Assembly (NCBI RefSeq): GCF_035989285.1
Contig: NZ_CP108513.1
Location: 5,766,001-5,830,000 of the forward strand
Length of the DNA: 64,000 nucleotides
Direction: 5' to 3'
From: Streptomyces sp. NBC_01235
Lineage (GTDB): Bacteria; Actinomycetota; Actinomycetes; Streptomycetales; Streptomycetaceae
The notes below the pieces were generated by a model. That model searched no databases and was not told the DNA's origin. It worked only from the letters and a program-made list of their open reading frames with translations. The translations under genes were made by a program, and so were the position numbers. The stretch's first letter is position 1. Every line of letters begins with the position of its first letter. Positions 33,755 to 63,545 of this stretch are shown here, one piece after another.

Positions 33755-34642
33755 TTGGAAATCACTCGACAGGCCGGCGAAAAGATGGGGGCCGTGGTTG
33801 AGGGCTTCGATCTGGCCACTGCTTCGGAAGAGGATTTCGAGGAGCTCAAGACCCGGACCTACCGCGACAAGATCCTGGTGCTCAAGAACCAGGACCTCTC
33901 ACCCGAGAAATTCCTGGAACTCGGCCAGAGGCTCGGTACTCCCGAGACCTACTACGAGCCGATGTACCAGCACCCCGAGGTGAAGGAAGTCTTCGTCTCC
34001 TCCAATATGAGCGACGGGGAAAAGCAGATCGGGGTCCCGAAGACGGGCAAGTTCTGGCATGCCGACTACATGTTCATGCCGAAGCCCTTCGGGCTCACGC
34101 TGATCTACCCCCAGGTCATACCGAAGAAGAACCGCGGAACCTACTTCATCGACATGGGGAAGGCCTACGAGAACCTCTCCGGCGAGCTGAAGGCCACCCT
34201 CGCCGATGCGGTGGCGGTGCAGACCGTGCGCCGGTACTTCAAGATCCGCCCGACCGACGTGTACCGCCCGATCTCCGAGATCCTCGACGAGATCGAGACC
34301 AAGACACCGGCGTCGCCGCACCCGGCGGTCTTCAAACACCCAGGGACCGGCGAACAGGTCCTCTACATCAGCGAGGGGTTCACCGCCGAACTGCAGGACG
34401 CCGACGGCAACCGGCTCGACGACTCGGTTCTGAAGGACGCGCTGGAGGCCGTGGGCCAGCTGGACCTGACGTGCGAGCACGAGAACATCCACCTCCAGAC
34501 CTTCGAGCAGGGCGACCTTCTGCTCTGGGACAACCGCAGCCTCGTGCACCGCGCGTTGCACACCGCGACGCCGGAGCCCACCGTCTCGTACCGCGTCACC
34601 GTGCACGACCACTTTCCGTTCTACGAGGGCATCTCCGCCTGA
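33755..34642 (+). CDS. Isonitrile-forming Fe(II)/2-oxoglutarate oxygenase, TauD family (ScoE-like)
   Basis: A 295-residue TauD-fold protein. I choose TTG 33755 because GGGGAGG lies six bases upstream and the resulting N-terminus ([20 protein letters not shown]) matches the family; GTG 33701 and ATG 33740 lack a good site. The iron ligands are His102 and Asp104 in FWHADYMF and His265 in SLVHRA; Arg280 (SYRVTVHD) should bind 2-oxoglutarate. With a constant offset of 30 these equal the ScoE residues I recall (His132, Asp134, His295, Arg310). Tyr66, Tyr67, Tyr71, Lys163 and His269 match its substrate-binding residues likewise. ScoE oxidatively decarboxylates an N-carboxymethyl-3-amino acid to an isonitrile. 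It is the first gene of the cluster. Confidence 0.93.
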
Positions 34643-34682
34643 CCAGCCCGTTCCTGCACCTCACGACCGAGAAAGAGTCGTC

Positions 34683-35885
34683 ATGACCACAGCGCAGCCG
34701 GCCCCCAAGCACCCGAATCCGTTCGACGAGGCGTTCTTCAAGGACCCGTATCCGACCTACGCCGAGTTGCACACGACGGGCGCGCCCCTGCACCGCGTGT
34801 CCCTGTCGGACGGCAACGACGTCTGGCTCATCACCGGCTACGAGGAGGCCAGCGAGGCGCTCAAGGACCGCCGCCTGGTCCGTAACCGCCGGCATGCCGG
34901 CCCCGACTACCAGAGCGAGATCCTGCCGGAGATCGTCCGCTCCGGGAACCTGCACATGGAGGACGGGCAGATCCACACCCGCCTCCGCCGCTTCATGAAC
35001 TTCGCCTTCACCCCGAAGCGGGTCGCGGCCATGGTGCCCCGGATCGAGCAGGTCACCAAGGAACTGCTCGACGCCATGGAGGCCAACGGCGGCGGCGACA
35101 TCATGGACGGCCTGGCCGCGCCGCTCCCGATCGCGATGACCACCGGCATCCTCGGTGTGCCGGACGACCAGCGGGGCGACTTCCGCTACTGGAGCGACGA
35201 GCTCCTCGGCGGCGCGCCCGAGCGCGCCCGCCAGGCCGCCGAGCAGCTGCTCGTCTACGTTCAGGGGCTCATCGACCTCAAGCGCCGCGAGCCGGCCGAC
35301 GACCTGATCTCGTACTGGGTCTCGGTCAAGGACGACGAGGGCAACCCGCTGACCGATCAGGAAATGATCGGCATGACCTTCTTCCTGCTGCTCGGCGGCT
35401 ACGACACGACGGTCGGCCAGATCGGTGCCTCCGTGATCGCACTGCTCAAGCACCCGGAGAAGGCCGAGCAGATGCGAGCCAATCCGGAGATCATCCCGGA
35501 CGCGGTCGAGGAACTGATGCGCTGGGACGGCTCCACCCACAGCGGCATCCGGCGGTTCGCGGCCGAGGACGTGGTGATCGGTGACGAGACCATCGCCGCC
35601 GGCGACTGCGTGCTGATCTCACTCGGCGCGGCCAACCGCTGCCCGATGCGCTTCGCCGATCCCGACCAGCTGGACTTCGAGCGCGAGGAGAACTGGCAGC
35701 TCGGTTTCGGCCGGGGCCCGCACCACTGCCCGGGCAAGGAGCTCGCCCGGCACGAGCTGCGCATCGCGCTGGGTGAACTGGTCCGTCGTTTCCCGAAGAT
35801 GCAGCTGGCCGTGTCCGAGGAGGAGGTCGTCTGGCGCCCGTCGTACCTGATCCGGGTCCCGCACGAGCTGCCGGTGAGGTTCTGA
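34683..35885 (+). CDS. Cytochrome P450 (first of an adjacent pair)
   Basis: A 400-residue bacterial P450 from ATG 34683. The I-helix oxygen-activation motif is LLGGYDTT. The heme-binding loop is LGFGRGPHHCPG with Cys349 as thiolate ligand. The C-helix region has HTRLRRFMNFAFTPKRV. No membrane anchor is present, so a cytoplasmic, ferredoxin-dependent enzyme is expected; no ferredoxin gene is in the window. It lies 40 bases after the isonitrile oxygenase and two bases before the second P450. In context it probably hydroxylates, desaturates or epoxidises the isonitrile chain or its precursor. Confidence 0.95.
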   Translation: MTTAQPAPKHPNPFDEAFFKDPYPTYAELHTTGAPLHRVSLSDGNDVWLITGYEEASEALKDRRLVRNRRHAGPDYQSEILPEIVRSGNLHMEDGQIHTRLRRFMNFAFTPKRVAAMVPRIEQVTKELLDAMEANGGGDIMDGLAAPLPIAMTTGILGVPDDQRGDFRYWSDELLGGAPERARQAAEQLLVYVQGLIDLKRREPADDLISYWVSVKDDEGNPLTDQEMIGMTFFLLLGGYDTTVGQIGASVIALLKHPEKAEQMRANPEIIPDAVEELMRWDGSTHSGIRRFAAEDVVIGDETIAAGDCVLISLGAANRCPMRFADPDQLDFEREENWQLGFGRGPHHCPGKELARHELRIALGELVRRFPKMQLAVSEEEVVWRPSYLIRVPHELPVRF

Positions 35886-35887
35886 AC

Positions 35888-37108
35888 ATGACGACGACGC
35901 CGGATGCTCCGGGGGCGCCCCGCTGTCCGTACGGCGCAGTGAAGACCCCCTTCGACGCCGCCTACTTCGCGGACCCGTACGCCACGTACCGTCGTCTGCA
36001 GACCGAGGGGCCGGTCCACCGGATCAAGACGCCTGAGGGCTACGACGCCTGGCTGGTCACCCGCTACGCCGATGTGCACCAGTTGCTGGGCGACCACCGG
36101 CTGGTGCGCCATGTGCGGCATGCCAAGGGCGATTACTTCCGCTTCCCGCTGCCCGTCGAGTTCTCCAGGTCGCTGGTCCGTGAGGACCCGCCCGTGCACA
36201 CGCGGCTGCGCCGGTACATGAACCTGGCGTTCGCGCCGAAGCGGGTGCGGCCTCTGCGGCCCCGCATCGAGGCGGTGACCGACGAGCTCGTCACCGCGCT
36301 CGGTGACAGCGGCGAGACGGACCTGATGGCCAGTCTCGCCATGCCGCTGCCCATCACGATCATCGCCGAGATGCTGGACGTCTCGGCGGAGGAGCAAGCG
36401 GACTTCCGGCGCTGGGCCGACGCGCTCGTGGGCCTGGATCAGGAGGAGCTGCGCAAGGGCGGCATCAGCATGCTGCACTGCCTGTCCCGGCTGGTCGAGC
36501 TGAAGCGGAAGGAACCGAGCGACGACATCTGGAACGACTGGATCCGGGGACTCCAGGGGCAGGAAGAGCCACTGGAGACCGATGAACTGCTGGGCCTTGG
36601 CTTCATGGTCCTGCTGGGCGGTTACGACCCCACCGCCGGCGTCATCGGCTCGGCCGTCCTGCGGCTGCTGGAGGAGCCGGACCTGGCGCAGCGGCTGCGC
36701 GAGCAGCCGGAACTGATGCCGTCGGCCGTGGAGGAGTTCCTGCGGCTGCACGGCGCCAGCCACACCGGCGCACGGCGGTTCGCCGCCGAGGACATCGAGG
36801 TGGGCGGCGAGACCATTCCGGCCGGAGCTGCCGTGTTCCTGTCGCTCAGTGCGGCCAACCGCGATCCGGAGAAGTTCGAGCTCGCCGAGGTCTTCGATCC
36901 GGAGCGGTCGCCCAACCGCCACGTCTCCCTCGGGCAAGGGCCGCACTTCTGTGCCGGCGCCGAACTCGCCCGCATGGAGATCACGGCGGTGCTGGAGGCC
37001 GTGTTGCACCGCCTCCCGAACCTTCGGCTGGCGGTACCGGCGGAAACTCTCAGGCTGCGGCCCGGGTATTCCATCCGGTCCCTCGAAAAGCTGCCTGTCA
37101 TGTACTGA
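35888..37108 (+). CDS. Cytochrome P450 (second of the pair), atypical I-helix
   Basis: A 406-residue P450 from ATG 35888, clearly a paralogue of the preceding gene (same DAAYFADPYATYRRLQTEGP opening and same length). The heme loop reads SLGQGPHFCAG with Cys355; leucine replaces the usual phenylalanine. The I-helix reads LLGGYDPTAG: proline stands where most P450s have the first threonine of the DTT pair, though the second is kept. This may alter oxygen activation. The pair probably arose by duplication and may catalyse successive oxidations; the order of action is unknown. Confidence 0.94.
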   Translation: MTTTPDAPGAPRCPYGAVKTPFDAAYFADPYATYRRLQTEGPVHRIKTPEGYDAWLVTRYADVHQLLGDHRLVRHVRHAKGDYFRFPLPVEFSRSLVREDPPVHTRLRRYMNLAFAPKRVRPLRPRIEAVTDELVTALGDSGETDLMASLAMPLPITIIAEMLDVSAEEQADFRRWADALVGLDQEELRKGGISMLHCLSRLVELKRKEPSDDIWNDWIRGLQGQEEPLETDELLGLGFMVLLGGYDPTAGVIGSAVLRLLEEPDLAQRLREQPELMPSAVEEFLRLHGASHTGARRFAAEDIEVGGETIPAGAAVFLSLSAANRDPEKFELAEVFDPERSPNRHVSLGQGPHFCAGAELARMEITAVLEAVLHRLPNLRLAVPAETLRLRPGYSIRSLEKLPVMY

Positions 37109-37130
37109 GCTCATCCTGGGGGGTAATGAG

Positions 37131-37706
37131 ATGCTGGCCCTGTCCCAGCCGTCGGCGTGGGCAACCGAATTCGCCACCGACGAGGTACTGCTCGAGCAGG
37201 TGTTGAAGCCGTACCGGCTCAACTGTCAATACCTCAAGTCCGCGGTGGTGAAGCTGGCCGACCGCCCCGGAGAGGTGGGACGGGTGTCGGCGTCCTGCGA
37301 GTTCGAGATCCCGGAGTCGTGCTACATCGACGACACCGGACACTTCAACTCGGTCGAATTCAACATCTGTTACAACCAGATGATGTATTACGTGATCGCC
37401 AAGGTGGTGAAGGAGCGGCTCCTGGAGCCGCTCTCTTCCTGGAGCATGGCGGACTACTGGTCGCGTCAGCTTGCCGACTTCCTCATCACCGATTTCCGCA
37501 GCTCCTTCCGGCGTGCGATGCAGGGCGGGAAGTTCTCCGGTGAGATCGAGATCCTCGACCTCACCGAATGGGAGGGGGACGACCTCCACGAGGCACTGCT
37601 GGTCGCGCAGACCTCCTGCCGTTACTGGGACGAGAACGGCGGCAACTGCCATGGCGAAGTCCGCATAGCCATCACCAACCCGATCAGCAATCAGAATCGA
37701 TCCTGA
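37131..37706 (+). CDS. FcoT-type thioesterase/lyase (ScoD-like, isonitrile pathway)
   Basis: A 191-residue protein from ATG 37131, preceded by GGGGGG; the frame is open further upstream into the P450 gene. The sequence has the FcoT signature: VLKPYRLNCQYLKSAVVKLA, FEIPESCYIDDTGHFNSVEF, NICYNQMMYYVIAKVVKERL and LADFLITDFRSSFRRAM. FcoT (Rv0098) and ScoD share this single hot-dog fold of about 180-190 residues. In isonitrile lipopeptide pathways the ScoD enzyme adds glycine to the beta carbon of an alpha,beta-unsaturated acyl-ACP and releases the N-carboxymethyl-3-amino acid that ScoE uses. The same role is inferred here. Confidence 0.9.
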   Translation: MLALSQPSAWATEFATDEVLLEQVLKPYRLNCQYLKSAVVKLADRPGEVGRVSASCEFEIPESCYIDDTGHFNSVEFNICYNQMMYYVIAKVVKERLLEPLSSWSMADYWSRQLADFLITDFRSSFRRAMQGGKFSGEIEILDLTEWEGDDLHEALLVAQTSCRYWDENGGNCHGEVRIAITNPISNQNRS

Positions 37707-37713
37707 GGCATTC

Positions 37714-38115
37714 ATGACGAAGAACACGCCACTGGTTGAGCAGTTGCGCAGCCTTTCCCGGCCGGAGCGGCGTTCTCGGGTCGAGGAGCTGGCGCGCACA
37801 GAGTTCCGGACCGCGCTGCTCATGTCCGAGGGCGAAGACGTTCCGCTGGACCAGAACTACTTCGACCTGGGCCTGACCTCGCTCCGTGTCACCGAGATCA
37901 AGCAGCGTCTGGAGGCGCAACTCGGCTGTGCCATCGACACGGCCGTGCTGTTCGCGGTACCGACACTGGGTCGCCTCGTGGAATACCTGCAGAACGAGAT
38001 CCTCCCGAAGCTGATCGGGGAGTCAACGGCATCGGAGGGAAGGGCCGCCAGCTCCGTGCCGGCCGACCGCAGGGCACTGGTCACCGACCTGCTGAACGAC
38101 CTGTACAAAGGCTGA
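37714..38115 (+). CDS. Acyl carrier protein (ScoB-like)
   Basis: A 133-residue free-standing carrier protein from ATG 37714, seven bases after the FcoT gene. The phosphopantetheine site is Ser56 in FDLGLTSLRVTEIKQ. The four-helix ACP core spans about residues 22-95. A C-terminal extension of about 38 residues (STASEGRAASSVPADRRALV) ends in a short helix (TDLLNDLYKG) that could serve as a docking element. It is longer than a typical 80-residue ACP. In context it should carry the enoyl and then the isocyanoacyl group for the FcoT, ligase and PKS enzymes. Confidence 0.9.
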   Translation: MTKNTPLVEQLRSLSRPERRSRVEELARTEFRTALLMSEGEDVPLDQNYFDLGLTSLRVTEIKQRLEAQLGCAIDTAVLFAVPTLGRLVEYLQNEILPKLIGESTASEGRAASSVPADRRALVTDLLNDLYKG

Positions 38116-38185
38116 ACGCACACCTGGCCTGACCAACGACCTATTCCGGGGGGCGCTGCGCTGCCTCTGGAGCGGAGGAACCACC

Positions 38186-41100
38186 ATGTCCAACCGGCGC
38201 CCAGATGTGCAGGAAGAACTGGACGCTGCTCGCGAAGCACTTCGGGAGCAGCGGAAAGTGCTCAGGGAGTTGCTGCTCGAAAAGCACGAGCCCATTGCGA
38301 TCGTGGGCGTCGGAATGCGTTTCCCCGGTGGGAACTCCACACTTCCGGGCTTCGCCGAATTCCTCGAGCAGGGCCGGTCGGGTACGGGGCCGATCCCCGT
38401 GGACCGCTGGGACGTGGAGGGTTTCTCCTCGGGCGGTCAGGACGCGAAGGGAAAGATCCGCACGTTCGCCGGCGGATTCCTGGACCGGGTGGACCAGTTC
38501 GACCCGCAGTTCTTCAACATCTCGCCGAAGGAAGCGCAGTACATCGATCCGCAGCAGCGGCTCGCGCTGGAGACCGCGTGGGAAGCCCTGGAAGAGGCGG
38601 GAATCGACCCGAACAGCCTGCGGAACGGCAATGGCGGTGTCTACGTCGGCGTCTCCACCGTCGACTACACCATCGAGGCGGACGCCCTCGCGTACGAGGA
38701 GCTGGATGCCAACATAGGTACCGGGACGGCGCACTCCGCGGTGCCTGGCCGGATCTCGTACTTCCTCGGCTGGCGCGGACCGAGCATGGCCGTGGACACC
38801 GCCTGCTCCGCCTCCCTGGTGACCCTGCACCTGGCCGCCGAGGGCCTGCGCCGCGGCGAGTGCGACATCGCGCTGGCCGGCGGGGTGAACGTGATCCACC
38901 ACCCGCGCAACCACATCGTCTTCTCGCAGGCGAACATGCTCTCCGTCGACGGCGAGTGCAAGACCTTCGACTCCTCCGCCGACGGATACAGCCGCAGCGA
39001 GGGCTGCGGGATGGTGGTGCTCAAGCGGCTCACGGACGCCAAGCGCGACGGGGACCGCGTGCTGGCGCTGGTACGTGGTTCGGCAGTGCGCCAGGACGGC
39101 GAGAGCGGCGGCCTGACCGTGCCCAACGGCTCCGCCCAGGCCATGGTCATCCGCGCCGCGCTCGACAACGCGGTGCTGGACCCCGCGGACATCCAGTACG
39201 TCGAGGCGCACGGCACCGGCACCTCGCTGGGTGACCCCATCGAGGTCGGAGCCATCCAGTCCGTCTTCGCCGAGTCGCACTCGAAGGCGGCGCCGATCGT
39301 CGTCGGCTCGCTGAAGACCAACGTCGGCCACATGGAGGCTGCGGCCGGTATCGGCGGTGTGATCAAGGCGGTGCTGCAGCTGCACAGCGGGCAGATCTAC
39401 CCGCACCTGAACATGGCGACCCCCTCGGAGCACATCCCGTGGGACGACTACTGCGTCGAGGTGCCGGTCGGCGGACGGCCCTGGAAGGCGGACACCCGCC
39501 GCGCCATCGTCAACTCCTTCGGCTTCGCGGGCACCATCGCCTGCGCCGTACTGGAACAGGCCCCCGCATTCGCCCCCACCGAACCGTCGGTGACCGACGG
39601 GGGGCACATCTTCACCCTCTCGGCGAAGAACGACAAGGCCCTGGCACTCCAGAGGGAGCGCCACCGTGCGCACCTCGCCGAGCACCCGGACCTGAGCCTG
39701 GCCGACGTCTGCTACACCAGCAACGTCGCCCGGGCCCACTTCGGCAGCAGGCTGGTGGGCGTGGTACGCGACACCGAAGAACTGTCGGCGCTGCTCGATC
39801 GCACCCCCATCGCCCGCCCCGACCTGAGCAGGACCGCCTTCCTCTTCACCGGCCAGGGCTCTCAGTACGCGGGCATGGGCAGGCCGCTCTACGACGCCTA
39901 CCCGGTGTTCCGGGAGCACCTGGACGCCTGCGACCGGCTCTTCGAAGCGCGGATCGGCCGGTCCGTCAAGGCACTCGTCCTCGGTGACGCCGAGGACCCG
40001 GAGGCGATCGACCAGACCTGCTTCACCCAGCCCGCGCTGTTCTCCCTGGAGTACGCCACCGCACAGTTGTGGCTGAGCTGGGGCGTCCAGCCGAGCGTTC
40101 TGATCGGCCACAGCATCGGCGAGGTGGTCGCGGCGACCGTGGCCGGACTCTTCTCGCTTCAGGACGCGGTCCGGCTGGTCGCGGCGAGGGCCCGGCTGAT
40201 GCAGTCCGTCACCGCACCCGGCGCGATGGTCGCCGTGGAAGCCGCGGAGAACGAGGTCGCCCCTCTCCTCGAAGCGTACGAGGACGTCACCTTCGGCGCC
40301 TTCAACGCCCCCGGTCACTGCGTCGTCTCCGGCGGTGAGGCCTCCGTCGCGGCCATCACCGGCCGGCTCGAGGAGCGCGGTCTGCGCGCCAAGCGGCTCG
40401 CGGTCTCGCACGCCTTCCACTCGCCGCTGATGGCAGAGGTCTTCGACGCCTTCCGCGAGGAGATCCAGGACATCACCTTCCGCGAGCCCGAATTCTCCCT
40501 GATCTCCAACGTCTCCGGCCGGGTCGCCGAGGTCGCCGAGATGTCCACCCCCGAGTACTGGGTGCGGCACATCGCGGAGCCCGTCAACTTCCAGGCCGGC
40601 ATGGCCGCGATCGGCGCCCGCGGCCGCCACGTCTTCATCGAGGTGGGCCCCTCGGGAACCCTGCTGGGACTGGGCAAGCGGATCCTGGACGCCAAGGAGC
40701 ACGTCTGGCTCCGGAGTTCGGCGAAGGGTGACACGGACTCCTCGGTCGTCCGGGCCTCGGTGGCCGAGTGCTACGCCGCCGGCCTGCGGATCGACTGGGA
40801 GGGCTACCACCAGGGGCGCGGCGGGCGGCGGACCGTACTGCCGACGTACGCCTTCGACACCAAGCGGTACTGGCTGCCCATCACCGGCGACCGGCACTCC
40901 AAGGAGCGCGTGGTCGACGCCTCGCGGGCGCACCACTCGCTGCTCGGCGCCGAGGTGAGCACCGCCGCGCAGCTCCGGGACGGCGCGCGCGAGTTCGCCG
41001 CCGAGATCGGTCCCGACCAGCCGTCCTACCTGGTCGACCACGTCATCATGGGACAGACGGTGTTCCCCGGCGCCGGCTACGTCGAGATCCTGCTCGCCCT

Positions 41101-47696: not shown

Positions 47697-47840
47697 GCGT
47701 GCATCGGGGGGAGTTCGTGGACCGGGGGGTTCGCGACGAACACCCGCCGGTACTGGTCCGGCCGCTCCCGCTCCCGGGGCCGGCTGCCCCCTCGACGCCG
47801 GCCGCCCGCTGGCCGCCGGCAGGAAATTCCAGGTGATTTG

Positions 47841-48704
47841 ATGAGTTCGTCCTTCACTGCCGTGCGCAGGGTGCTGAACGCCGCCTCGTACGTCTCCCCC
47901 CGGCTCCTCGGCGGTTACGTGTGGCGGCTGTTCTGCGAGCCGGTCACGCGTGACAAGGTGCGCGGCGCCCAACAGCCGGTCCACGACCAGGCCGTGGTGG
48001 AGAAGATCACCGTGAACGGCAAGGACGTGGTGACCTACCGCTGGGGCGAGGGCGGCAACCCGGTGCTGCTCATCCACGGCTTCGGTGGCCGGGCGGCCAA
48101 CTTCGCCGGGTTCGTCCACGGGCTCCAGCAGCTCGGCGTCACCGCGCTGGCATACGACGCCTTCGGCCACGGCGACTCCGGGGGCAAGGGCGTCACGATC
48201 CTGGACCACCTGGCCGTGCTGCGGCAGTTGCAGGACCGCCACGGGCCCTTCCGCGCCGTCATCGGGCACTCCTTCGGCGGCACCACGGGGTACCTCGCGC
48301 TGCGGCGCGGCATCAAGGCCGGCCGGCTGGTGTCCATCTCCTCCGTGGGCGAATTCGCCTCCCTGCCGAGCACGTTCTGCAAGCAGCTGGGCCTGCGGCC
48401 GGTGTACGCGCGGGAGCTGCGGCGCCGCACCGAGCTGCTCTTCGCGTCCGAGCCGGACCCGTGGAACGCCTTCTCGCCCGTGCACCGCCCGGAGGAGATC
48501 GAGCAGCCGGTTCTCGTGGTGCACGACCAGAACGACCGCGAAGTCGGCGTGGAGCAGGGCCGCCGCATCGCCGCCGCGTACGGCGACCGGGCCGAGTTCC
48601 TGCTGACGGAGGGGCTCGGACACCGCCGGATCCTCGGCGACACCACGGTGATCACCAAGGTGCTGGCGTTCGCCGTGGGCGACGAAGTGACACCTGACGA
48701 GTAA
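47841..48704 (+). CDS. Alpha/beta hydrolase, probable free-standing thioesterase
   Basis: A 287-residue alpha/beta-hydrolase from ATG 47841 (AGGTGA upstream; the TTG three bases earlier is less likely). The oxyanion region is LLIHGFGGRAANF, the nucleophile elbow IGHSFGGTTGYLAL, the acid in VVHDQNDREV and the histidine in EGLGHRRI. No signal peptide is seen. Because none of the PKS proteins here ends in a thioesterase domain, this enzyme is a good candidate to release a PKS product, either the C5 enoate or the final acid. It follows the ligase after a 144-base gap without a clear terminator. Confidence 0.88.
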   Translation: MSSSFTAVRRVLNAASYVSPRLLGGYVWRLFCEPVTRDKVRGAQQPVHDQAVVEKITVNGKDVVTYRWGEGGNPVLLIHGFGGRAANFAGFVHGLQQLGVTALAYDAFGHGDSGGKGVTILDHLAVLRQLQDRHGPFRAVIGHSFGGTTGYLALRRGIKAGRLVSISSVGEFASLPSTFCKQLGLRPVYARELRRRTELLFASEPDPWNAFSPVHRPEEIEQPVLVVHDQNDREVGVEQGRRIAAAYGDRAEFLLTEGLGHRRILGDTTVITKVLAFAVGDEVTPDE

Positions 48705-48750
48705 CGCCGGACGCGTCAGCAACCAGTAATCACGACCCTAGGTGAGAGCG

Positions 48751-54700: not shown

Positions 54701-57123
54701 TGCACGCCGCCGCGGGAACGGGCGGTGGCCGGGTCGGCGAGCTGGTGCTCGAGGCGCCCATGGCCCTGCACGAGGGGACCGCGCTCGACGTACGGGTGAG
54801 CGTCGGTGGTGCGCAGGCGGACGGCCGCCGCGAATTCACCGTGCACGCACGGCCACAGGACGCGTCCCGCGGGGAGTGGACCCGGCACGCGACCGGCCGG
54901 CTGGAATCGGCGGACGCCGGGCGCCCGGCCGCCGCCCCGGCAGCGGAGCAGAGCTGGCCGCCCGCCGGTGCCGTCGAGGTGGACCTCGACGGTGTCTACG
55001 AGCGGTTCGCCGAACGTGGGCTGCGGTACGGCAGCGAGTTCCGCGGGCTGCGGGCCCTGTGGCAGCTCGGGGACGAGCTCCTCGCCGAAGTGGAACTCCC
55101 TGGCGGCGAGGCCGAGGAGGCTCACGGTTTCCGCCTCCATCCGGTTCTCCTCGACGCGGCGCTGCACGCGGTCCTCGCGCCGGTACAGGAGCAGGACCCC
55201 GCCCTGCCCTTCGCCTGGCAGGGGATCGAGACGTACGCACCGAGCGGGCGGCGCCTGCGGGTCCGCGCGACCCCGTTGCGCCAGGGCGGCAGATCCGGCG
55301 AGCTGTCGGTCTCGCTCGCCCTCGCGGACGGCACGGGCCGCCCGGTGGCCTCGGTCGAGTCCCTGCGTCTGAAGCGAACCACGCCCGAACAGCTCGGCCG
55401 GGCGATCGGGCAGCGGCAGGGGGAGCTGTACCGGCTGGAGTGGCCGCTCGTCGCGGCCCCGGCGGTCCCGGGCGGGCCGGAGGGCCGGTGGGCGTTTCTG
55501 GGCAGCGACCACCTCGGCCTGACCGGGATGTTCAAGAGCGCCGGTGTACCGGTGGACGTCTGCCCGGACCTGCTGGCTCTCGACAGTCTGGTGGGGGCCC
55601 CGGAGCCGCCGCCCGCGGCCGTCGTCGTCACGTGCGTGGGGGAGAAGGACACCGTCGACGAGTCGGTCGCCGCGGCGAGCCGGCGGGCGCTCAGACTGGT
55701 CCAGGAGTGGCTGACCGACGAACGGCTGGCGGCGACCCGGCTGGTGCTCGTCACCGCGGGCGCGGTCGCCACCCGTGCGGACGAGGAGGTGTCCGACTCG
55801 GCGGGCGCGGCCATCTGGGGCCTGATCCGAAGTGCCCAGACGGAACACCCCGGACGATTCGTCCTGGTCGACATCGAACCGGGGGAACGCGGCGTGGACG
55901 GGCTGATCGGCGCGATCACGTCCGGCGGGCCGCAGACGGCCGTCCGCTCCGGTGCCGTCCGGGAACCCCGCCTGGCGGCGGTCCGCGGCAGGCGTCACCC
56001 GGCCGCGGTGGGCAGCGGACCGTGGACGCCGGACGGCACCGTGCTCATCACCGGCGGGACCGGCATGCTCGGCAGCCTGCTCGCCCGCCACCTGGTGCGG
56101 CGGCACGGCGTACGAAAGCTGGCGCTGCTGAGTCGCCGTGGCCCGGCGGCACCCGGTGCCAAGGTCCTGGTGGCCGAACTGACCGCACTCGGCGCCGAGG
56201 TGTCCGTCCTGGCCTGCGACGCGGCCGACCGACCGGCGCTGGCCGAGGCACTGGCGCGGCTGCGGAAGGACGCTCCGCTGAGCGCCGTCGTGCATACGGC
56301 GGGGATCCTCGACGACGGCATCGTCACGGGGCTGACACCCAAGCGGCTGCAGCGTGTCCTGAGGGCCAAGAGCACGGCAGCGCTCAATCTCCATGAACTC
56401 ACCACTCAGGACACGCTGTCGGCGTTCGTCCTGTTCTCCTCGGTCATCGGCATGCTCGGTGGCGCGGGACAGGCCAACTACGCCGCGGCGAACAGCGTCC
56501 TGGACGCGCTGGCACACCAGCGCAGGGCGCTCAAGCTGCCCGCCGTCTCGCTGGCCTGGGGCCTGTGGAACCCCGACGCGGGACTCGCGGCGAGCCTGTC
56601 GGACGTCGACATCGCCCGTATGGCCCGGTCCGGTCTGGCGCCGTTGTCCGTGCAGCGCGGGATCGAGCTGTTCGACGCCGCCCTCGCCTGTGACGAGCCC
56701 GTGCTCGTGCCCGTCGCGTTCAACGCCGAGGCGCTGCGCACCCGGTCCGGCGGCCTCGCAAAGGTGCTGACCGGGCTGGCACCGGCCGGGGCGGCGCGGC
56801 CCGGGACGGCGCTGCGGGTCTCGCTCCGGGACCGGATGGTGGCGCTGCCGGAGGCGGAACGGCCGTCCGCGCTCCGCACGTTCGTCCGGGAACAGATCGC
56901 CGCGGTGATGGGGTACGCCTCGGCGGACGCCGTCGAGCCCGAGCGGGAGATCTGGGACCTCGGCCTCGATTCGCTGACCGCGCTGGAACTCACCAGCCGG
57001 CTGACCGCCGCGGCCGGCCTGCGGCTGCCGGCCACCCTCACCTTCGACCACCCCTCCGCCGCCGCGCTGTCGCAGTACCTCCTCGAGGTGCTGACCAGGG
57101 AGGCCGTACCGAAGCAGCCGTGA
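48751..57123 (+). CDS. Type I PKS, KSQ-AT-ACP loading module plus KS-AT-DH-KR-ACP
   Basis: A 2790-residue PKS; ATG 48751 follows AGGTGAG, which is better placed than the GTG nine bases earlier. Loading module: KSQ with Gln177 replacing cysteine (DSGQSSS), AT with Ser625 in GHSQG and YASH at 725-728 (methylmalonyl-type), ACP Ser965. Together these imply a propionyl starter made by decarboxylation. Extension module: KS Cys1196, AT Ser1658 in GHSVG with HAFH at 1758-1761 (malonyl-type), DH His1966 and LLDAALH, KR with TGGTGMLG near 2434, an LDD motif (B type) and Tyr2577, and ACP Ser2741. There is no ER and no thioesterase. The expected product is ACP-bound trans-2-pentenoyl, assuming normal specificities. 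Confidence 0.93.
53125..53166 (+). repeat. Seven GCCCCG hexanucleotide repeats (Ala-Pro linker)
   Basis: Seven uninterrupted copies of GCCCCG encode (Ala-Pro)7 at residues 1459-1472 of the PKS, in the linker between KS and AT of the extension module. It is probably a flexible, variable-length linker. Confidence 0.9.
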
Positions 57124-57160
57124 CCCCCTCGCCCGCCGTCCTCCCACAGAAGCAGTGAGT

Positions 57161-58630
57161 ATGAACCAGACTCAAGACGCAGACACGCCGCCCCAGGAAC
57201 CCGGCGGCGGACAGATATTGCCGGCACTCGTGCTGTCCATGCTGGCCTTCAGCATGGTGCAGACCGCGGTGGTGCCGATCCTCCCCTCCCTCGCCATGGG
57301 CGTGCACGTCTCCAGCGGCACGGTCGCCTGGCTGATGACCGCCAACCTGCTCGCGGCCGCGGTGCTCACCCCGCTGCTGGGGCGCTTCGGTGACCTCTAC
57401 GGCCGCAAAACGATGTTGCTGGTCTCGCTCGGCGGCCTGGCGCTGGGGTCGGTGCTCGCGGTGAGCACCGAGTCGTTCGCCTGGCTTGTGGTGGCCCGCG
57501 TCCTGCAGGGCGCGGGTGGCGGTGTCTTCCCGCTGGCCATCAGCGTGGTGCGCAACCAGCTCCCGCCGCACAGGATCCCGGGCGGCATCGGGGCTGTCAG
57601 CGCCGCGATGGGCATCGGCAGCGCCCTCGGCCTGGTGGTCACCGGTCTGCTGATGGAGCAGTGGAGCTACAAGTCCGTCTTCTGGGCCGGACTGCTCATC
57701 GGCCTCGTCGCCATCGCCTGGTCCGTGGTGGGCATCCCCAAGGACGTGGTAACCGATCACACCGTCAAGGTGGACCCGCTGGGTGCCCTCACGCTGACCG
57801 GGTGGCTCTGCGCCCTGCTGCTCGCCGTCAGCCAGGGCAACAACTGGGGTTGGGGTTCCGGCCGGATCGTCGGCCTCTTCGTCGCGGCCGTGGTGATCGC
57901 GGCCGTGTGGGCCGTCATCGAACTGAAGGTGCAGCACCCCCTGGTGAGCATCCGGATGCTCGTGAGCCCCGTCGTGGCCATCACCAACGTGGCAGGTGCG
58001 GTGGTCGGGTTCGGCATGTACGGGTGCTTCATGGTGATCAGCAACTTCGCCCAGACACCGGAGAAGATCGCGCACTACGGATTCAGCGCCGACGTCCTGC
58101 ACGCCGGCGTGATGCTGCTGCCTTCCGCCATCGGCAGCATGACGGCTGCGCCGGTCGGCGCGAAGCTGATCGCCGCACGAGGCCCGCGGATCCCCCTCTC
58201 ACTGGGCGGACTGCTCGCAGCGGTGGCGATGGGCTTCCTCGCCGTGGTGAACGGGCACCCGGTCGACCTCTATCTCGCCGCCGCGGTGTTCGGTTTCGGC
58301 GTCGGCCTTGCTTACACGGCCATGCCGGCCGCCATCAATTCCGCTGTCCCGATCGAGCAGAGCGGCATCGCCAATGGCATGAACGCGGTGTTCCGTACGG
58401 TAGGAGGCGCTGTAGGAACGGCTGTCCTCGGCTCCACCCTGGCCAGTGACACCATCGAGGGCTTGCCGCTGCCCACCTTGGGTGCTTATCAAGAAGCGTT
58501 CTGGATCACCTCGATCGGCTGCTTCGTCGCCGCGGTGGCCTCTCTTGCGATCCGCACCTCCGTCAGCCCGGTGAACTCAGGGAAGTCCGCTGTGCAGCAA
58601 AGCGACCCGACCGAGGAAACCGTCGCCTGA
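57161..58630 (+). CDS. MFS drug:H+ antiporter (EmrB/QacA-like exporter)
   Basis: A 489-residue polytopic transporter from ATG 57161; a GTG two codons earlier is possible. The size and helix count (about 14 membrane segments) fit the DHA2 family. The loop motif GRFGDLYGRKTMLLVSLGGL (motif A) and VARVLQGAGGGVFPLAISVV (motif C-like region) are clear. It is the only transporter in the visible cluster and the likely exporter of the product, which also gives self-protection. It starts 37 bases after the PKS stop, so it is probably cotranscribed. Confidence 0.93.
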   Translation: MNQTQDADTPPQEPGGGQILPALVLSMLAFSMVQTAVVPILPSLAMGVHVSSGTVAWLMTANLLAAAVLTPLLGRFGDLYGRKTMLLVSLGGLALGSVLAVSTESFAWLVVARVLQGAGGGVFPLAISVVRNQLPPHRIPGGIGAVSAAMGIGSALGLVVTGLLMEQWSYKSVFWAGLLIGLVAIAWSVVGIPKDVVTDHTVKVDPLGALTLTGWLCALLLAVSQGNNWGWGSGRIVGLFVAAVVIAAVWAVIELKVQHPLVSIRMLVSPVVAITNVAGAVVGFGMYGCFMVISNFAQTPEKIAHYGFSADVLHAGVMLLPSAIGSMTAAPVGAKLIAARGPRIPLSLGGLLAAVAMGFLAVVNGHPVDLYLAAAVFGFGVGLAYTAMPAAINSAVPIEQSGIANGMNAVFRTVGGAVGTAVLGSTLASDTIEGLPLPTLGAYQEAFWITSIGCFVAAVASLAIRTSVSPVNSGKSAVQQSDPTEETVA

Positions 58631-58662: not shown

Positions 58663-59100
58663 ATGCACCCCGGGCAGATATTCCTCTTCGAGGGTGTTCA
58701 GAGCCTGAGTTCTACCGGCCCAGCCGAGGTTTTCGACACAGCGAATTCGATGATGGATTCTCAGCCCAGGTACGCCGTACGTACGGCCACCATCGATGGC
58801 GCACCGGTGCGAACGTCCAGCGGGCTGACCGTCGTGCCGGACAGCACCGGCAAGGACGTGGCTGATATCGGCACCTTGGTCGTCCCTGGTGGTGACGCCC
58901 CTCCGTCGCTGGAGCCAAGCGGCATCACCGAGATCGCCGCGATGGCGCATCGCTCCGAGCGGGTGGCGTCAATCTGCACCGGGGCTTTTGTCCTTGCCCG
59001 GGCCGGCCTTCTCGACGGCCTTTCCGGTGTCGATCCGGCACTCGTTCTCGGTGGCCGATCAACTCTCCCTCCCACACGGCCGGCATCCGAAAACGGCTAG
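58663..59100 (+). pseudogene. Truncated GlxA-type AraC regulator (DJ-1/PfpI domain only)
   Basis: The frame reads IFLFEGVQSLSSTGPAEVFD, then ATIDGAPVRTSSGLTVVPDS, TLVVPGGD and ASICTGAFVLARAGLLDG. This is the N-terminal DJ-1/PfpI-like domain of GlxA-family AraC regulators, including the usual SICTGAF elbow. Homology stops after about 119 residues. The rest of the domain and the two C-terminal AraC helix-turn-helix motifs are missing, replaced by unrelated sequence running up to the fabH ribosome binding site. It cannot bind DNA as an AraC protein, so it is a relic, probably created when the downstream genes were joined here. Confidence 0.8.
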
Positions 59101-59143
59101 TGTGACGGCAAGTCAATCACCAGTGCAGCAGGAGGACTTCACC

Positions 59144-60082
59144 ATGACCGGGTCTCGCCTCGTGGGCCTAGGCCACTACCAGCCACAGAAGGTGCTCACC
59201 AATGACGTCCTGGCGGAGATGGTCGACACCAGTGACGAGTGGATCCGCAGCCGCGTCGGCATCCGTACCAGGCATGTGGCGGAGGCAGAGGAATCGGTGG
59301 CGGACATGGCGGCGGAAGCCGCTCAGAAAGCCCTCGCCAATGCAGGCTTGACCAGTACGGAGATCGATCTCGTCATCGTCGCGACCTGCACGTCCCACGA
59401 TCGTTCTCCCAATGTGGCAGCGCGTGTTGCGAGCCGGCTCGGCATCGCGGCGCCTGCGGCGCTGGACGTCAACACGGCCTGCTCCGGTTTCCCGCACGCC
59501 CTGGCCATGGCTGACCTGGCCATCAAGGGCGGCTCCGCGAAGAAGGCCCTGGTGATCGGGGTCGAGAAGCTCACGGACTTCGTGGACTGGTCCGACCGCA
59601 GTACCTGCGTGCTGGTCGGCGACGGAGCGGGTGCCGTCGTCGTCGCCGAGGCCGAGACCGCCGAGATCAGTCCCGTGGTCTGGGGATCCGTCCCCGAGAT
59701 GGGCAGGGCTGTGCTCATCGAGGGCAAGTCGGGCACCTTCTCCCAGGAGGGCCAGTCCGTGTACCGCTGGGCGACGACCGCTCTGCCGGACATCGCCCGG
59801 ACAGTGTGCGAGCGCGCCGGCGTCAAGCCGGCGGAACTCGGTGGTGTCATCCTGCACCAGGCCAATCTCCGGATCGTCGAGCCGGTCGCCAGGAAGATCG
59901 GCGCGGTGAACGCGGTCATCGCGCGGGACGTCGTGGACTCCGGCAACACCTCGGCCGCGAGCATCCCGCTGGCGTTCTCCAAGCTGGTGGAACGGGGAGA
60001 ACTGACCCCGGGGTCACCCGTGCTGCTCTTCGGGTTCGGCGGCGGCCTGTCGTACGCCGGCCAGGTCGTCCGGTGCCCGTGA
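59144..60082 (+). CDS. Beta-ketoacyl-ACP synthase III (FabH-like), candidate self-resistance copy
   Basis: A 312-residue KAS III from ATG 59144 (AGGAGG nine bases upstream). The full catalytic triad is present: Cys113 in NTACSGFPHA, His238 in LHQANLRIVE and Asn268 in DSGNTSAASIP, close to the E. coli FabH numbering. Also typical are SDEWIRSRVGIRTRHVA and VLVGDGAGAVVV. FabH condenses a short acyl-CoA with malonyl-ACP to start fatty-acid synthesis. The primary fabH of Streptomyces is normally with fabD-acpP-fabF, so this copy is extra. It could be a drug-insensitive replacement if the product inhibits FabH, or a biosynthetic enzyme. It has its own leader after the GlxA relic. Confidence 0.92.
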   Translation: MTGSRLVGLGHYQPQKVLTNDVLAEMVDTSDEWIRSRVGIRTRHVAEAEESVADMAAEAAQKALANAGLTSTEIDLVIVATCTSHDRSPNVAARVASRLGIAAPAALDVNTACSGFPHALAMADLAIKGGSAKKALVIGVEKLTDFVDWSDRSTCVLVGDGAGAVVVAEAETAEISPVVWGSVPEMGRAVLIEGKSGTFSQEGQSVYRWATTALPDIARTVCERAGVKPAELGGVILHQANLRIVEPVARKIGAVNAVIARDVVDSGNTSAASIPLAFSKLVERGELTPGSPVLLFGFGGGLSYAGQVVRCP

Positions 60083-60093
60083 CGGGTGAACCC

Positions 60094-60925: not shown

Positions 60926-60971
60926 ACAACCGAACCTTGTCTGACAAACCTGTGCGGAAAGGAAGACAACG

Positions 60972-62183
60972 ATGTCCACATTGACCCGCGTGGCGGATCT
61001 CCACCCCATCGACGGGGATGCCGCCGTTTGCACCGGCCCGGCGTGGCAGTGGCTCCCCGGGCTGACACGGGGGCACCGCGCCGTCCGGTGGGGCTCCGCC
61101 GTCGTCCTGACGACGTATGCCGACTGCCGGGCCGCCTTGTCGGACAAGAGATTCGGCAACGGCCTCCGGGCTGAGATCGGCGCCATGCAGGACATCGACC
61201 CGCAGTTCGTCGCGCGGCGCCGGCAGTCGCTGCTCCTCGAGGAGGGTGAGCGGCACACACGGCTGCGCCGACTGGCGATTCCCGCCCTGCGGCCCCGCAA
61301 CTTCGACCGTTTCCGGCCCGCGATGATCCAGGTCGTCGACGAGTTGGTGGACCGCGTCCAGGAGCGCGGACGATGCGACGCGGTCGTCGACATCTGCAAC
61401 CCGTTGCCCATTTCGGTGATTTGCTGGGTTCTGGGCATCCCGCGGGAGGAAGCGGCGTTCTTCGCCGAGGTGGCCGAGGCGTCGACCGCCGTGTTCTCCG
61501 GGGATCCGAGCACCGTACCGGCGGCCATGGCGGCCACCGAGAAGATCGACTCCTACATCGAGGACCTGATCGAGCGGCGGCGTTCGGATCCGGGCAGCGA
61601 CCTGATCACGGACCTCCTCGCGGCAACCGAGTCCGAGGACAGGAACGTGTCGAACACGGACGTGATGACGGTCATCACGTCGTTGATCGTCGGCGGCACC
61701 GACACCACGCGGAACCAGCTCGCCATCGCGCTCCACTGCTTCGCCGAGCGTCCTGATGACTGGGAGCGGCTCGGCAAGGAGCCAGAGCTGGTGCCGAACG
61801 CCGTCGAGGAAGTCGTCCGCTACGCCCCGACGGCGTACACGATGAAGCGCGTCACCAACGAGGATGTGGACCTCGACGGGTTGTGGCTCCCCCGCGGCAC
61901 CCCCGTCATGGTCATGTCCACCCTCGCCAACCGCGACCCCGGCGCCTTCACCGATCCCGAACGCTTCGACATCGGCCGGGAGTTCCGGCACCCTCACATG
62001 GGGTTCGGCTGGGGGCTGCGCAGCTGCGTCGGGTCGGTACTGGCGCGAGCCGAGCTCAGCGAGGCGCTGACCGTTCTCTCCCGGCGGCTGACCGGTCTGG
62101 CGCTCGACGGCGAGACCCTGTGGAGCCGACCCGACACCATTCAAGGCCCGGTGATCCTGCCCCTGCGCTTCGACGCGGCGTAG
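60972..62183 (+). CDS. Cytochrome P450 (third)
   Basis: A 403-residue P450 from ATG 60972 (GGAAAGGAAG upstream). The I-helix is IVGGTDTTRNQ, the K-helix region AVEEVVRYAPTAYTMKRV, and the heme loop MGFGWGLRSCVG with Cys352. It is only distantly similar to the adjacent pair at 34683-37108: it lacks their shared N-terminus and has the standard threonine pair. It probably performs a separate oxidation of the product, for example hydroxylation next to the isonitrile carbon or on the chain; the sequence does not decide this. Confidence 0.94.
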   Translation: MSTLTRVADLHPIDGDAAVCTGPAWQWLPGLTRGHRAVRWGSAVVLTTYADCRAALSDKRFGNGLRAEIGAMQDIDPQFVARRRQSLLLEEGERHTRLRRLAIPALRPRNFDRFRPAMIQVVDELVDRVQERGRCDAVVDICNPLPISVICWVLGIPREEAAFFAEVAEASTAVFSGDPSTVPAAMAATEKIDSYIEDLIERRRSDPGSDLITDLLAATESEDRNVSNTDVMTVITSLIVGGTDTTRNQLAIALHCFAERPDDWERLGKEPELVPNAVEEVVRYAPTAYTMKRVTNEDVDLDGLWLPRGTPVMVMSTLANRDPGAFTDPERFDIGREFRHPHMGFGWGLRSCVGSVLARAELSEALTVLSRRLTGLALDGETLWSRPDTIQGPVILPLRFDAA

Positions 62184-62230
62184 CGGCTTGCCGCGGCCGA
62201 CCCGAGCATGACCCTCGTCGGCCGGACTGC

Positions 62231-62680
62231 TCAGGCCCTCGGGACAGGCGCTGTCGCATGGTCGTGGGCACGCTCCTGTCCCGAGAGGCCCCCGATCGCC
62301 CCGATGATCTCGTCGGCGACGAACCGGCGGACCTGCGCGGGGCGCATACCGATGTCGAGGCCGGCGCAATGCAGCGGTCTGCCGAACTCCACGGTGATGC
62401 GGTGGTGACGGGGCAGTCGCCGGCCGACCGGCTGGAGTCGGTCAGTACCGGTCAGCGCCACGGGCACCACCGGGGCTCCCGTCGTGAGGGCGAGCCACGC
62501 GACACCGGTCCGCCCGCGGTGGAGCCGGCCGTCGAGAGAGCGGGTTCCCTCGGGATGGATACCGAAGGTTCGGCCCTCGCCCAGGACGCGTTCAGCCGCC
62601 TGAAGGTGATCGACCGGACGGACGCCCTGAACCATCCGCGGACAGGGCATCCGATCGGTCCCGGTACATCTCTGACCCAA
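62231..62680 (-). pseudogene. Truncated 1-acylglycerol-3-phosphate acyltransferase (PlsC-like)
   Basis: The minus strand reads VDHLQAAERVLGEGRTFGIH, PEGTRSLDGRLHRGRTGVAW, LALTTGAPVVPVALTGTDRL and RITVEFGRPLHCAG, the C-terminal two thirds of a PlsC acyltransferase, with the substrate-binding PEGTRS block and the later VPVAL block. The N-terminal part with the catalytic HX4D motif is missing, and the sequence upstream of 62680 has no resemblance. The remaining protein should be inactive. It separates the P450 gene from the convergent regulator gene. Confidence 0.8.
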
Positions 62681-62741
62681 AAGCCGGCGGCCTTCTGTCA
62701 GGGCCGGTCAGGGCCCTGACAGAAGGCCGCATGCGGCATGG

Positions 62742-63545
62742 TCATCGCAAGGAGAATTGGGCGTCGGCGACGCCGCGGTCAGCACCGGATTCAAGCCAGG
62801 AATCGCGAGCGAGAATGGACCGCTGAATGTGCTGCAGCTGCGGTCCCGGCTCGAGGCCCAGCTCCTCGACCAGAATCCCGCGAATTCGGTCGAAGGTTCG
62901 CAGTGCGTCCGCGGTGCGGCCACTGCGGTACAGGGAGATCATGAGATAGCCGTAGGTCGCCTCCCAGGCCGGATGCGCCTCGATCAGCGAGTAGAGCTCG
63001 CAGATCAGCTCGTGATGACGGCCCAGGTCCAGTTCCAGCTGGAGCCGGCGCTCGTGGGCGTAGACACGCTTCTCGTCGAGCAGCCGGCAGACACCCGCGA
63101 AAGCGGGCATGTCACGGAAGTCCGCCAATGCCGGGCCGCGCCAGAGGTCGACGGCAGAGCTCAGCGCGGCGGACGCCGCTTCGAGCTCACCGTGGCTTTG
63201 CAGGTTGCGGGCCTCTGCGAGGTGCGCCTCGAACAGGTTGAGGTCGAGGGAGGAGTGCGGGAGCCGCAGTTCGTAGCCGGTCGACTGGGTGGTGAGGACG
63301 GAGGCGTCGAGGCCCAGTTCACGAAAGCGGCTTCGCAGGTTGCAGACATAGACGTGGAGTGCGGTGTGAGCGCTCTGCGGCGGCGTGCCCGACCAGATCG
63401 CGTTGATGAGCCGTTCCGGGGAGACTGCTGTCATATTGTTGACGCAGAGATAGGCCAGTAAAGCGCGGTTTTTCGGCGCCCAAGGCCTGACACTTTCACC
63501 GTTGGATTTTTCTATTCCGAGCGGACCCAGAATGCGAAAAAGCAT
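62742..63545 (-). CDS. SARP-family transcriptional activator
   Basis: A 267-residue regulator from ATG 63545, preceded by GGGGGTG. The N-terminal OmpR-like winged helix reads MLFRILGPLGIEKSNGESVR, LLAYLCVNNMTAVSPERLIN, AIW and YVCNLRSRFRE. The bacterial transcriptional activation domain (BTAD) follows from about residue 100, with VDLWRGPALADF, LDEKRVYAHERRLQLELDLG and LMISLYRSGRTADALRTFDR. This is the small DnrI/ActII-4 type without an NB-ARC extension. It is probably the pathway-specific activator of the cluster. It is transcribed toward the biosynthetic genes from the right. Confidence 0.93.
   Translation of the reverse strand: MLFRILGPLGIEKSNGESVRPWAPKNRALLAYLCVNNMTAVSPERLINAIWSGTPPQSAHTALHVYVCNLRSRFRELGLDASVLTTQSTGYELRLPHSSLDLNLFEAHLAEARNLQSHGELEAASAALSSAVDLWRGPALADFRDMPAFAGVCRLLDEKRVYAHERRLQLELDLGRHHELICELYSLIEAHPAWEATYGYLMISLYRSGRTADALRTFDRIRGILVEELGLEPGPQLQHIQRSILARDSWLESGADRGVADAQFSLR

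Follow-up and report, generated by a model that had tools for sequence, protein, structure and literature searches.

We have identified in Streptomyces sp. NBC_01235 a gene cluster whose predicted product is, as the best explanation of its genes, probably an isonitrile-capped polyketide acid of the amycomicin and aerocyanidin kind. The window, i.e. the whole stretch of DNA analysed, comprises 64,000 nt (GCF_035989285.1, NZ_CP108513.1, 5,766,001-5,830,000), and positions refer to it. Judged by its genes, the cluster very probably builds an isonitrile acid with a dedicated polyketide synthase (PKS), lengthens it with a second PKS and then oxidizes it, which would make it a relative of amycomicin and not a wholly new kind of molecule. 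A preliminary description of this DNA had proposed the epoxy-isonitrile class. The assignment to the amycomicin/aerocyanidin kind is well supported by the ScoE cut-off and the gene set, but the exact product, with its epoxide and chain length, is a prediction.

Gene content and the isonitrile core

Every gene named in the preliminary description (ScoE, FcoT, ACP, ligase, two PKS proteins, a ketosynthase, three P450s, an exporter, a FabH and a SARP) was found (Table 1).

Table 1. Features of the cluster and its neighbours, with the basis of each reading
Feature	Position	Strand	Basis or remark
ScoE-type Fe(II)/2-oxoglutarate oxidase/decarboxylase (TauD protein)	33740..34642	+	6dch, NF049937, 14/14 residues
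Cytochrome P450a, candidate warhead oxidase	34683..35885	+	lineage common to G158 and g331 clusters
Cytochrome P450b	35888..37108	+	lineage of the single P450 at that place in G042 and G832
FcoT/ScoD/CmiS1-type dual thioesterase	37131..37706	+	Pfam FcoT, nearest structures 5wsx/5wsy
Stand-alone ACP, ScoB-like role	37714..38115	+	domain scan
PKS1: KS-AT(malonyl-type)-DH-ER-KR-ACP	38186..44617	+	domain scan, mycocerosic acid synthase match
Stand-alone ketosynthase homologue	44622..46079	+	Cys kept, both catalytic His replaced (Gln, Tyr)
AMP-forming acyl-CoA/acyl-ACP ligase, ScoC-like role	46125..47696	+	domain scan, NCBIfam profiles
Alpha/beta hydrolase, candidate chain-releasing thioesterase	47838..48704	+	domain scan
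PKS2: KSQ-AT(methylmalonyl-type, YASH)-ACP-KS-AT(malonyl-type, HAFH)-DH-KR(LDD)-ACP	48742..57123	+	domain and motif reading
MFS exporter	57155..58630	+	domain scan, S. capoamus
DJ-1-like ORF	58663..59100		looks truncated
Extra FabH (beta-ketoacyl-ACP synthase III), candidate self-resistance target copy	59144..60082	+	profiles, relatives, S. capoamus
Cytochrome P450c	60972..62183	+	about 30% identity to P450a and P450b
PlsC-like ORF	62231..62680		looks truncated
SARP-family pathway regulator	62742..63632	-	BTAD and Trans_reg_C domains, S. capoamus

The oxygenase ORF spans 33701-34642, with the ATG at 33740 as its likely start. Its product matches the PDB entry for ScoE, 6dch, at 445 bits (E=8e-133) and exceeds the cut-off of the NCBIfam ScoE equivalog NF049937 (497.7 vs 400 bits). 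All fourteen ScoE residues checked are identical in the window. Three of them, H132, D134 and H295, are the Fe ligands. The other eleven (Y96, Y97, Y101, R157, K193, R195, D198, R201, E209, H299 and R310) are named ScoE residues (PMC7949033). It had been suggested beforehand that a grouping with non-isonitrile families would speak against an isonitrile pathway; the oxygenase instead clusters with ScoE-type enzymes adjoining FcoT genes. It is predicted to convert an N-carboxymethyl-3-amino acid to a 3-isocyano acid.

The protein at 37131 carries a Pfam FcoT domain (206.9 bits vs a cut-off of 27, E=1.6e-61) and lies under the cut-off of the NCBIfam ScoD equivalog (216.9 vs 250 bits). By these scores it is a member of the FcoT family and is not filed as ScoD proper. 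The solved structures nearest to it we take to be SAV606. Enzymes of the SAV606 type are reported to add glycine to enoyl thioesters and to serve isonitrile pathways (PMC11284099). The predicted role in the window is Michael addition of glycine to an enoyl thioester, followed by hydrolysis.

Domain scans and the loci of relatives place ScoE, FcoT, ACP, ligase, PKS and P450 all together in the window cluster, a set that marks epoxy-isonitrile polyketide clusters. Isonitrile lipopeptide clusters (ScoA-E) likewise have the ScoE, FcoT/ScoD, ACP and ligase functions, and ScoE is 62-67% identical in 14 Streptomyces-type isonitrile lipopeptide-type loci (L043-L055, L057). In both such loci scanned (L044, L046) a condensation-domain NRPS adjoins the ligase, whereas the window has two PKS proteins and no NRPS: of 27 condensation-domain matches genome-wide, the nearest is about 3.1 Mb away. 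The gene set and the ScoE cut-off uphold the proposal that Sco-type chemistry feeds a type I PKS, with the NRPS absent as described.

That such wiring is a novelty in itself was considered and rejected. Zheng, Clardy and Liu are said to have described in JACS in 2024 that amycomicin and aerocyanidin use an FcoT-type dual thioesterase, a ScoE-type oxygenase, ACP loading, PKS elongation and P450 oxidation. In these features the window resembles the pathways of aerocyanidin and amycomicin (BGC0001504, from Amycolatopsis sp. AA4). Isonitrile-to-PKS wiring in both pathways is mentioned in PMC13273461, and the core architecture (ScoE, FcoT, ACP, PKS1, solo ketosynthase and ligase together) is common to 13 clusters, the window included.

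From ScoE to SARP the whole set recurs in Streptomyces capoamus with unchanged gene order, at 81-97% identity per gene or domain. On sequence comparison, chance is excluded by the ScoE and FcoT E-values, this synteny and the 13 core clusters. A decayed or silent relic, to which the truncated look of the PlsC-like and DJ-1-like neighbours might point, is very improbable: neither ORF has a counterpart in the S. capoamus stretch, all fourteen cluster genes are matched there, and the core motifs are intact. The two ORFs probably lie outside the cluster. Insertion of the cluster as an island at tRNA-Leu (31248) was considered and rejected, as neither a second copy of at least the last 12 bases of the tRNA nor a direct repeat of at least 14 bases of the 31.2-31.4 kb stretch was found in the window and the next 60 kb.

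Proposed starter synthase and elongase, and the solo ketosynthase

PKS2 is predicted to be a self-contained starter synthase, the logic of which would give (E)-2-pentenoyl-ACP for FcoT. The KSQ, YASH/HAFH, LDD, DH, ER and ketosynthase-histidine motifs were read by textbook rules; DH, KR (LDD) and ER motifs are present in the window PKS proteins. With eight YASH ATs and one FASH AT the loading AT of PKS2 shares 42-77% identity, and with 30 HAFH ATs 29-36%; for the two remaining ATs of the window the pattern is the opposite, and they are closer to HAFH ATs. The KSQ and methylmalonyl-type AT agree with the KSQ/propionate loading module described earlier and are consistent with a C5 starter. The KSQ and HAFH motifs are mentioned in PMC12843615, according to which the unit taken by a loading AT can differ from that expected of its clade, a point that counts against the C5 reading.

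In the PKS2 of four Streptomyces clusters (the window, S. capoamus, G158 and G042) the loading AT is of the methylmalonyl type, and the PKS2 of three related clusters from genus g331 contains one AT only, with none for loading. How chain parity is set can be tested on this contrast. PKS2 is missing from the flanks examined in 5 of the 13 core clusters and is therefore dispensable for the core chemistry.

The logic from PKS2 to FcoT is that of the cremimycin starter route (CmiP2-4, CmiS1, CmiS2), in which a TE-less PKS of the cluster makes an (E)-enoyl for CmiS1, and this FcoT-type thioesterase adds glycine and releases the acid that is the starter of a second PKS (PMC11284099). In the window, ScoE stands where cremimycin has the FAD oxidase CmiS2, and no FAD oxidase domain was found among the 18 ORFs scanned (33.7-63.6 kb). 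Because ScoE replaces CmiS2, an isonitrile and not a free amine would be made. With this cluster one could test if, in isonitrile pathways, FcoT naturally acts on an enoyl carried by a PKS.

Mycocerosic acid synthase is colinear with PKS1 end to end over the full KS-AT-DH-ER-KR-ACP length. PKS1 differs in its malonyl-type AT, so that no methyl branches are predicted, and it may act as an iterative elongase of the isocyanoacyl starter.

The stand-alone ketosynthase of the preliminary description is present, but is not a normal one, since it lacks both catalytic histidines. The second is Tyr in all 14 homologues and the first is Gln in 12 of them. Unlike a normal ketosynthase, it is predicted to be non-elongating. 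In G107, whose genome has no ScoE at E<=1e-30, the Cys of one homologue (L174) is gone as well, and a transacylase role is therefore not assured. The role of a ketosynthase without catalytic histidines is open to test in this cluster.

P450s, the extra FabH and related clusters

The tandem of P450a and P450b occurs in the window and S. capoamus, and each lineage is single in relatives. P450c has a counterpart at the same place in S. capoamus (82% identity), whereas 80 other relatives gave none at E<=1e-90. On the strength of the S. capoamus gene, P450c is counted as part of the cluster. The three P450s and the FabH listed earlier are parts of one conserved cluster.

It is unlikely that the product is amycomicin itself or a trivial congener, made by another copy of the published cluster. 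The gene families are identical, and BGC0001504 has been reported in some Streptomyces (PMC13273461). Between the window and the f6/g331 genomes, which we guess to be Amycolatopsis, the cluster genes are roughly 50-70% identical. The g331 clusters, however, have no loading AT in PKS2 and one P450 between ScoE and FcoT, vs the methylmalonyl-type loading AT of the window and the tandem two plus a third P450 in the window and S. capoamus; the comparison here is with the g331 clusters and not with the real amc genes. The listed formula of amycomicin, C19H29NO5, leaves 18 carbons besides the isonitrile carbon and hence an even chain, whereas a C5 starter with malonates would give an odd one.

A close FabH adjoins 8 of the 13 clusters and differs from the second genomic copy in the seven genomes examined. 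The f6 cluster FabHs (n=4 tested) group with Streptomyces FabHs, apart from their own second copies. Amycomicin is reported to inhibit FabH, and its MIC for S. aureus is given as 30 nM (PMC13273461); the extra cluster-linked copy fits target self-resistance by analogy. The case rests on position and analogy, because the catalytic residues (Cys-His-Asn) are kept, the cluster FabHs do not form one clade and a single column separates them from second copies; this diagnostic column, residue 180 (Val vs Leu), was not convincing as a resistance residue.

The intact triad would also suit a metal-binding isonitrile polyketide that is no epoxy-isonitrile antibiotic, with P450s for other oxidations and a FabH merely supplying fatty-acid starters, and in some microbes the isonitrile group is said to contribute to virulence and to metal acquisition (PMC7949033). 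We consider this quite unlikely: there is no NRPS scaffold displaying several isonitriles, 12 of the 13 clusters have a P450 between ScoE and FcoT, and the close FabH is cluster-linked in two families.

Proposed pathway

Enzyme families, active-site residues, domain order and conservation were read from sequence; substrate identities, hand-off order, iteration, the epoxide and resistance are what we infer from them. For the isonitrile-capped polyketide acid, the KSQ of PKS2 would decarboxylate methylmalonyl-ACP to propionyl-ACP, and a single round of malonyl extension, ketoreduction and dehydration would give (E)-2-pentenoyl-ACP. FcoT would add glycine to C3 and, by thioester hydrolysis, release 3-(carboxymethylamino)pentanoic acid, which ScoE would turn into 3-isocyanopentanoic acid for loading onto the free ACP by the ligase. 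The condensation-incapable solo ketosynthase may hand on the isocyanoacyl chain or assist, PKS1 would extend it iteratively with full reduction, and the alpha/beta hydrolase would release the acid. P450a, b and c would oxidize the chain, most likely to an epoxide at the isonitrile end. The MFS protein would export the product, the extra FabH would shield host fatty-acid initiation, and the SARP would turn the cluster on.

YM-47515 and aerocyanidin end in an epoxide with extra oxidation beside it. We tentatively suggest, as a possibility somewhat short of even, that the window and S. capoamus form a distinct propionate-started epoxy-isonitrile branch, a reading that the S. capoamus P450c makes slightly more probable. 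The C5 enoyl of PKS2 would lead to an odd-chain acid ending CH3-CH2-C(NC), the three P450s (two tandem, of two lineages) would introduce the epoxide together with a further oxidation next to it, and handover to iterative PKS1 would pass through the conserved condensation-dead ketosynthase by chain transfer or in the manner of a chain-length factor. Given the reported activity of amycomicin against FabH and S. aureus, this relative of its cluster, with more oxidases and another predicted starter, offers a starting point for new analogues.

Fusion of FcoT inside a modular PKS of other Streptomyces was also considered and rejected, FcoT being a free gene in both resolved cases (G107, G364) of five. 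Those loci, with half-size DH matches and without ScoE in the flanks examined, fit cremimycin-type clusters.

Isonitrile enzymes and extent of the cluster

The window cluster is a variant of the epoxy-isonitrile polyketide kind, for which a specific C5-starter model is proposed. All genes named in the preliminary description were recovered in Pfam scans. Its reading of ScoE/FcoT-type isonitrile genes combined with type I PKS, and no NRPS, as an epoxy-isonitrile fatty-acid antibiotic cluster was right in outline but does not describe a categorically new system. The aerocyanidin/amycomicin pathway has already been published (JACS 2024, 146, 21061), as cited in PMC13273461. Among the papers listed by a literature search on isonitrile and ketosynthase (11 of 12 matches), no title dealt with isonitrile polyketide clusters like this one; the search covered few subscription papers and so is a poor guide to the published record.

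The ScoE homologue of the window aligned without gaps to ScoE (6dch) over 295 residues (445 bits) and passed the curated ScoE cut-off (497.7 vs 400). Fourteen ScoE residues were checked, 11 as named in the ScoE structure paper (PMC7949033) and three as Fe ligands. All 14 are retained in the window protein, and three of them vary among 41 ScoE homologues, with R201 present in 39/41, E209 in 37/41 and H299 in 35/41. The window FcoT is a clear member of its family in the Pfam scan, but missed the ScoD cut-off (216.9 vs 250) and was therefore filed as FcoT/CmiS1-type. Trees were built from 41 ScoE and 44 FcoT rows. In them the window, S. capoamus, G158 and G042 make up a starred group of four that is separate from the Streptomyces loci taken to be of the isonitrile lipopeptide type; both such loci that were scanned (L044 and L046) carry NRPS C-A-PCP-reductase. 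The PKS-type rows do not form a single clade in either tree (3 and 4 label changes, respectively).

The window covers G000:C1:5766001-5830000 of a Streptomyces genome that consists of a single contig of 11.09 Mb. Condensation domains were matched 27 times in this genome, and none of these matches lies closer to the cluster than ~3.1 Mb. PP2C genes, FHA-domain genes and a tRNA-Leu lie on the cluster's left side. The closest named FcoT match was that of S. capoamus JCM 4253 (92%), whose contig carries ScoE, P450a, P450b, FcoT, ACP, PKS1, solo KS and ligase in the window's gene order and orientations, followed by hydrolase, PKS2, MFS, FabH, P450c and SARP, likewise ordered and oriented as in the window, at 81-97% identity per gene or domain. 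On the strength of this full gene set, the cluster is bounded at ~33.7-63.6 kb and includes P450c. Neither the DJ-1-like nor the PlsC-like ORF of the window had a match in the S. capoamus stretch; longer PlsC-type homologues occur in or near several related clusters.

Predicted starter supply, elongation and oxidation

PKS2, the predicted starter synthase, begins with a KS in which Gln replaces the active-site Cys (DSGQSSSL). Next come an AT bearing the YASH motif, one ACP and the module KS-AT(HAFH)-DH-KR-ACP, in which the KR carries LDD and the DH motif is present. Fifty non-overlapping AT domains from fetched loci were compared. The loading AT, scored against 48, shared 42-77% identity with eight YASH and one FASH domains, 29-36% with 30 HAFH domains and 27-34% with the other nine, whereas the PKS1 AT and second PKS2 AT displayed the opposite pattern (40-90% to HAFH, 30-39% to YASH/FASH). 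The expected PKS2 product is (E)-2-pentenoyl-ACP, a prediction to be read with the statement in PMC12843615 that loading ATs may accept units outside clade expectation. The YASH-type loading AT is common to PKS2 of the starred four; PKS2 of G1201, G1202 and G1228 has a KSQ (DSGQSASL or DSAQSASL) followed by an ACP, with one AT only.

The cremimycin starter route follows the same logic, in that a PKS lacking a TE builds the 2-enoyl chain, onto which the FcoT-type CmiS1 loads glycine before releasing it (PMC11284099). Amycomicin is listed as C19H29NO5 (PMC13273461), which leaves 18 carbons once the isonitrile carbon is set aside. Malonate extension of a C5 starter would give an odd chain, so the window product is expected not to be amycomicin, provided that the AT prediction is right. 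Elsewhere, five FcoT genes in modular PKS clusters (see table) share 59-62% identity with the window FcoT and adjoin half-size DH matches; no ScoE was found within the fetched flanks. These loci fit cremimycin-type beta-amino starter clusters.

PKS1 is colinear with mycocerosic acid synthase over its whole length and, as the sole other PKS of the cluster, is inferred to act iteratively. The solo KS was aligned in 14 rows (12 of 22 rows, those at ≥50% identity, plus G190 and G107). Its second His is Tyr in 14/14, its first His is Gln in 12/14 (retained in G1119 and G190) and its Cys is present in 13/14 (Ser in G107). The window PKS1 KS and both PKS2 KS domains retain both His in the same alignment, and elongation by the solo KS is thus not to be assumed; isocyanoacyl transfer and a chain-length-factor-like function are candidate roles.

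P450a and P450b (45% identity) are in tandem in the window and S. capoamus, and P450c is ~30% identical to either. A single P450 occupies the ScoE/FcoT position in G158, G042, G832 and four clusters of one genus (g331, perhaps Amycolatopsis). A tree of 15 P450s joined P450a to G158 and these g331 clusters (99/100), while P450b fell with its S. capoamus counterpart and with G042 and G832 (95/95).

FabH as a candidate self-resistance copy

A close FabH adjoins 8/13 core clusters, while S. bohaiensis and S. lonarensis have a distant FabH-like gene only (36%). All seven genomes examined have the cluster FabH plus at least one further copy. This linkage, together with FabH being the amycomicin target (PMC13273461), favours by analogy the cluster FabH as a candidate self-resistance copy; its intact catalytic residues, and the single alignment column that separates cluster from second-copy FabHs, count against this role. 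Cluster FabHs are not a single clade (2 label changes). Four from one family, f6 (G1201, G1202, G1228 and G832), join a Streptomyces group (99/97) that mixes cluster and second copies, and the f6 genomes' own second copies fall elsewhere, a tree pattern consistent with movement of these FabHs between genomes along with the cluster.

Distribution in relatives

Window genes were compared with fetched loci by tblastn. ScoE, FcoT, ACP, PKS1, solo KS and ligase co-occur in 13 clusters: the window, S. capoamus, G158, G042, G1201, G1202, G1228, G1197, G832, S. bohaiensis (G135), S. lonarensis (G113), G190 and G1119. PKS2 is present in the first seven; the G1197 contig stops earlier and the other five lack it within the flanks fetched. 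The ScoE/FcoT interval holds a P450 in 12/13, the exception being G1119, in which tblastn of the fetched locus also gave no ER match in PKS1. Among 392 Streptomyces genomes drawn, FcoT was matched in 37 and the solo KS in seven (E<=1e-125, four candidates scored per genome). Wide flanks covered 13 of the 37, the window among them, so the fraction of PKS-type clusters among the 37 is an incomplete count.

PKS1 was matched in part in G344, the G1165 stretch compared ends within the cluster, and G985 has ScoE, FcoT and ligase but differs in its PKS modules. In G107, a block without ScoE anywhere in the genome (E<=1e-30) shares 58-66% identity with the window in KS, AT, ER, KR, solo KS and ligase, 47% in DH and 39% in ACP. 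ScoE, FcoT, PKS1 and ligase are present in G154, G031 and L056, where no close solo KS was found (top KS matches 36-40%). L056, a gammaproteobacterial locus (Alteromonadaceae XY-R5) with a full PKS1, is possibly aerocyanidin-like. Cyanobacterial loci (L033-L040; Nostoc and relatives) have ligase at 45-46%, ScoE at 52-54% and FcoT at 57-60%, with additional AMP-ligase-type matches in most.

Locations of features in and beyond the window
Feature	Location	Strand
Short DJ-1/PfpI-type ORF, MFS/FabH interval, possibly truncated	window 58663-59100	+
Truncated PlsC-type acyltransferase, profile positions 81-131 of 132 only	window 62231-62680	-
PEP phosphomutase-like, fatty-acid hydroxylase-like, KS/CLF-like pair and SDR, right of window	L158 4347-12574 (G000:C1:5834347-5842574)	
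ACP-PKS1-KS-ligase block	L174 (G107:C1:5691000-5710999), about 3309-14100	
FcoT gene in modular PKS cluster	G107:C1:179351-179881	
FcoT gene in modular PKS cluster	G364:C11:4590-5111	
FcoT gene in modular PKS cluster	G113:C188:26269-26799	
FcoT gene in modular PKS cluster	G180:C2:9342800-9343324	
FcoT gene in modular PKS cluster	G338:C780:19979-20500
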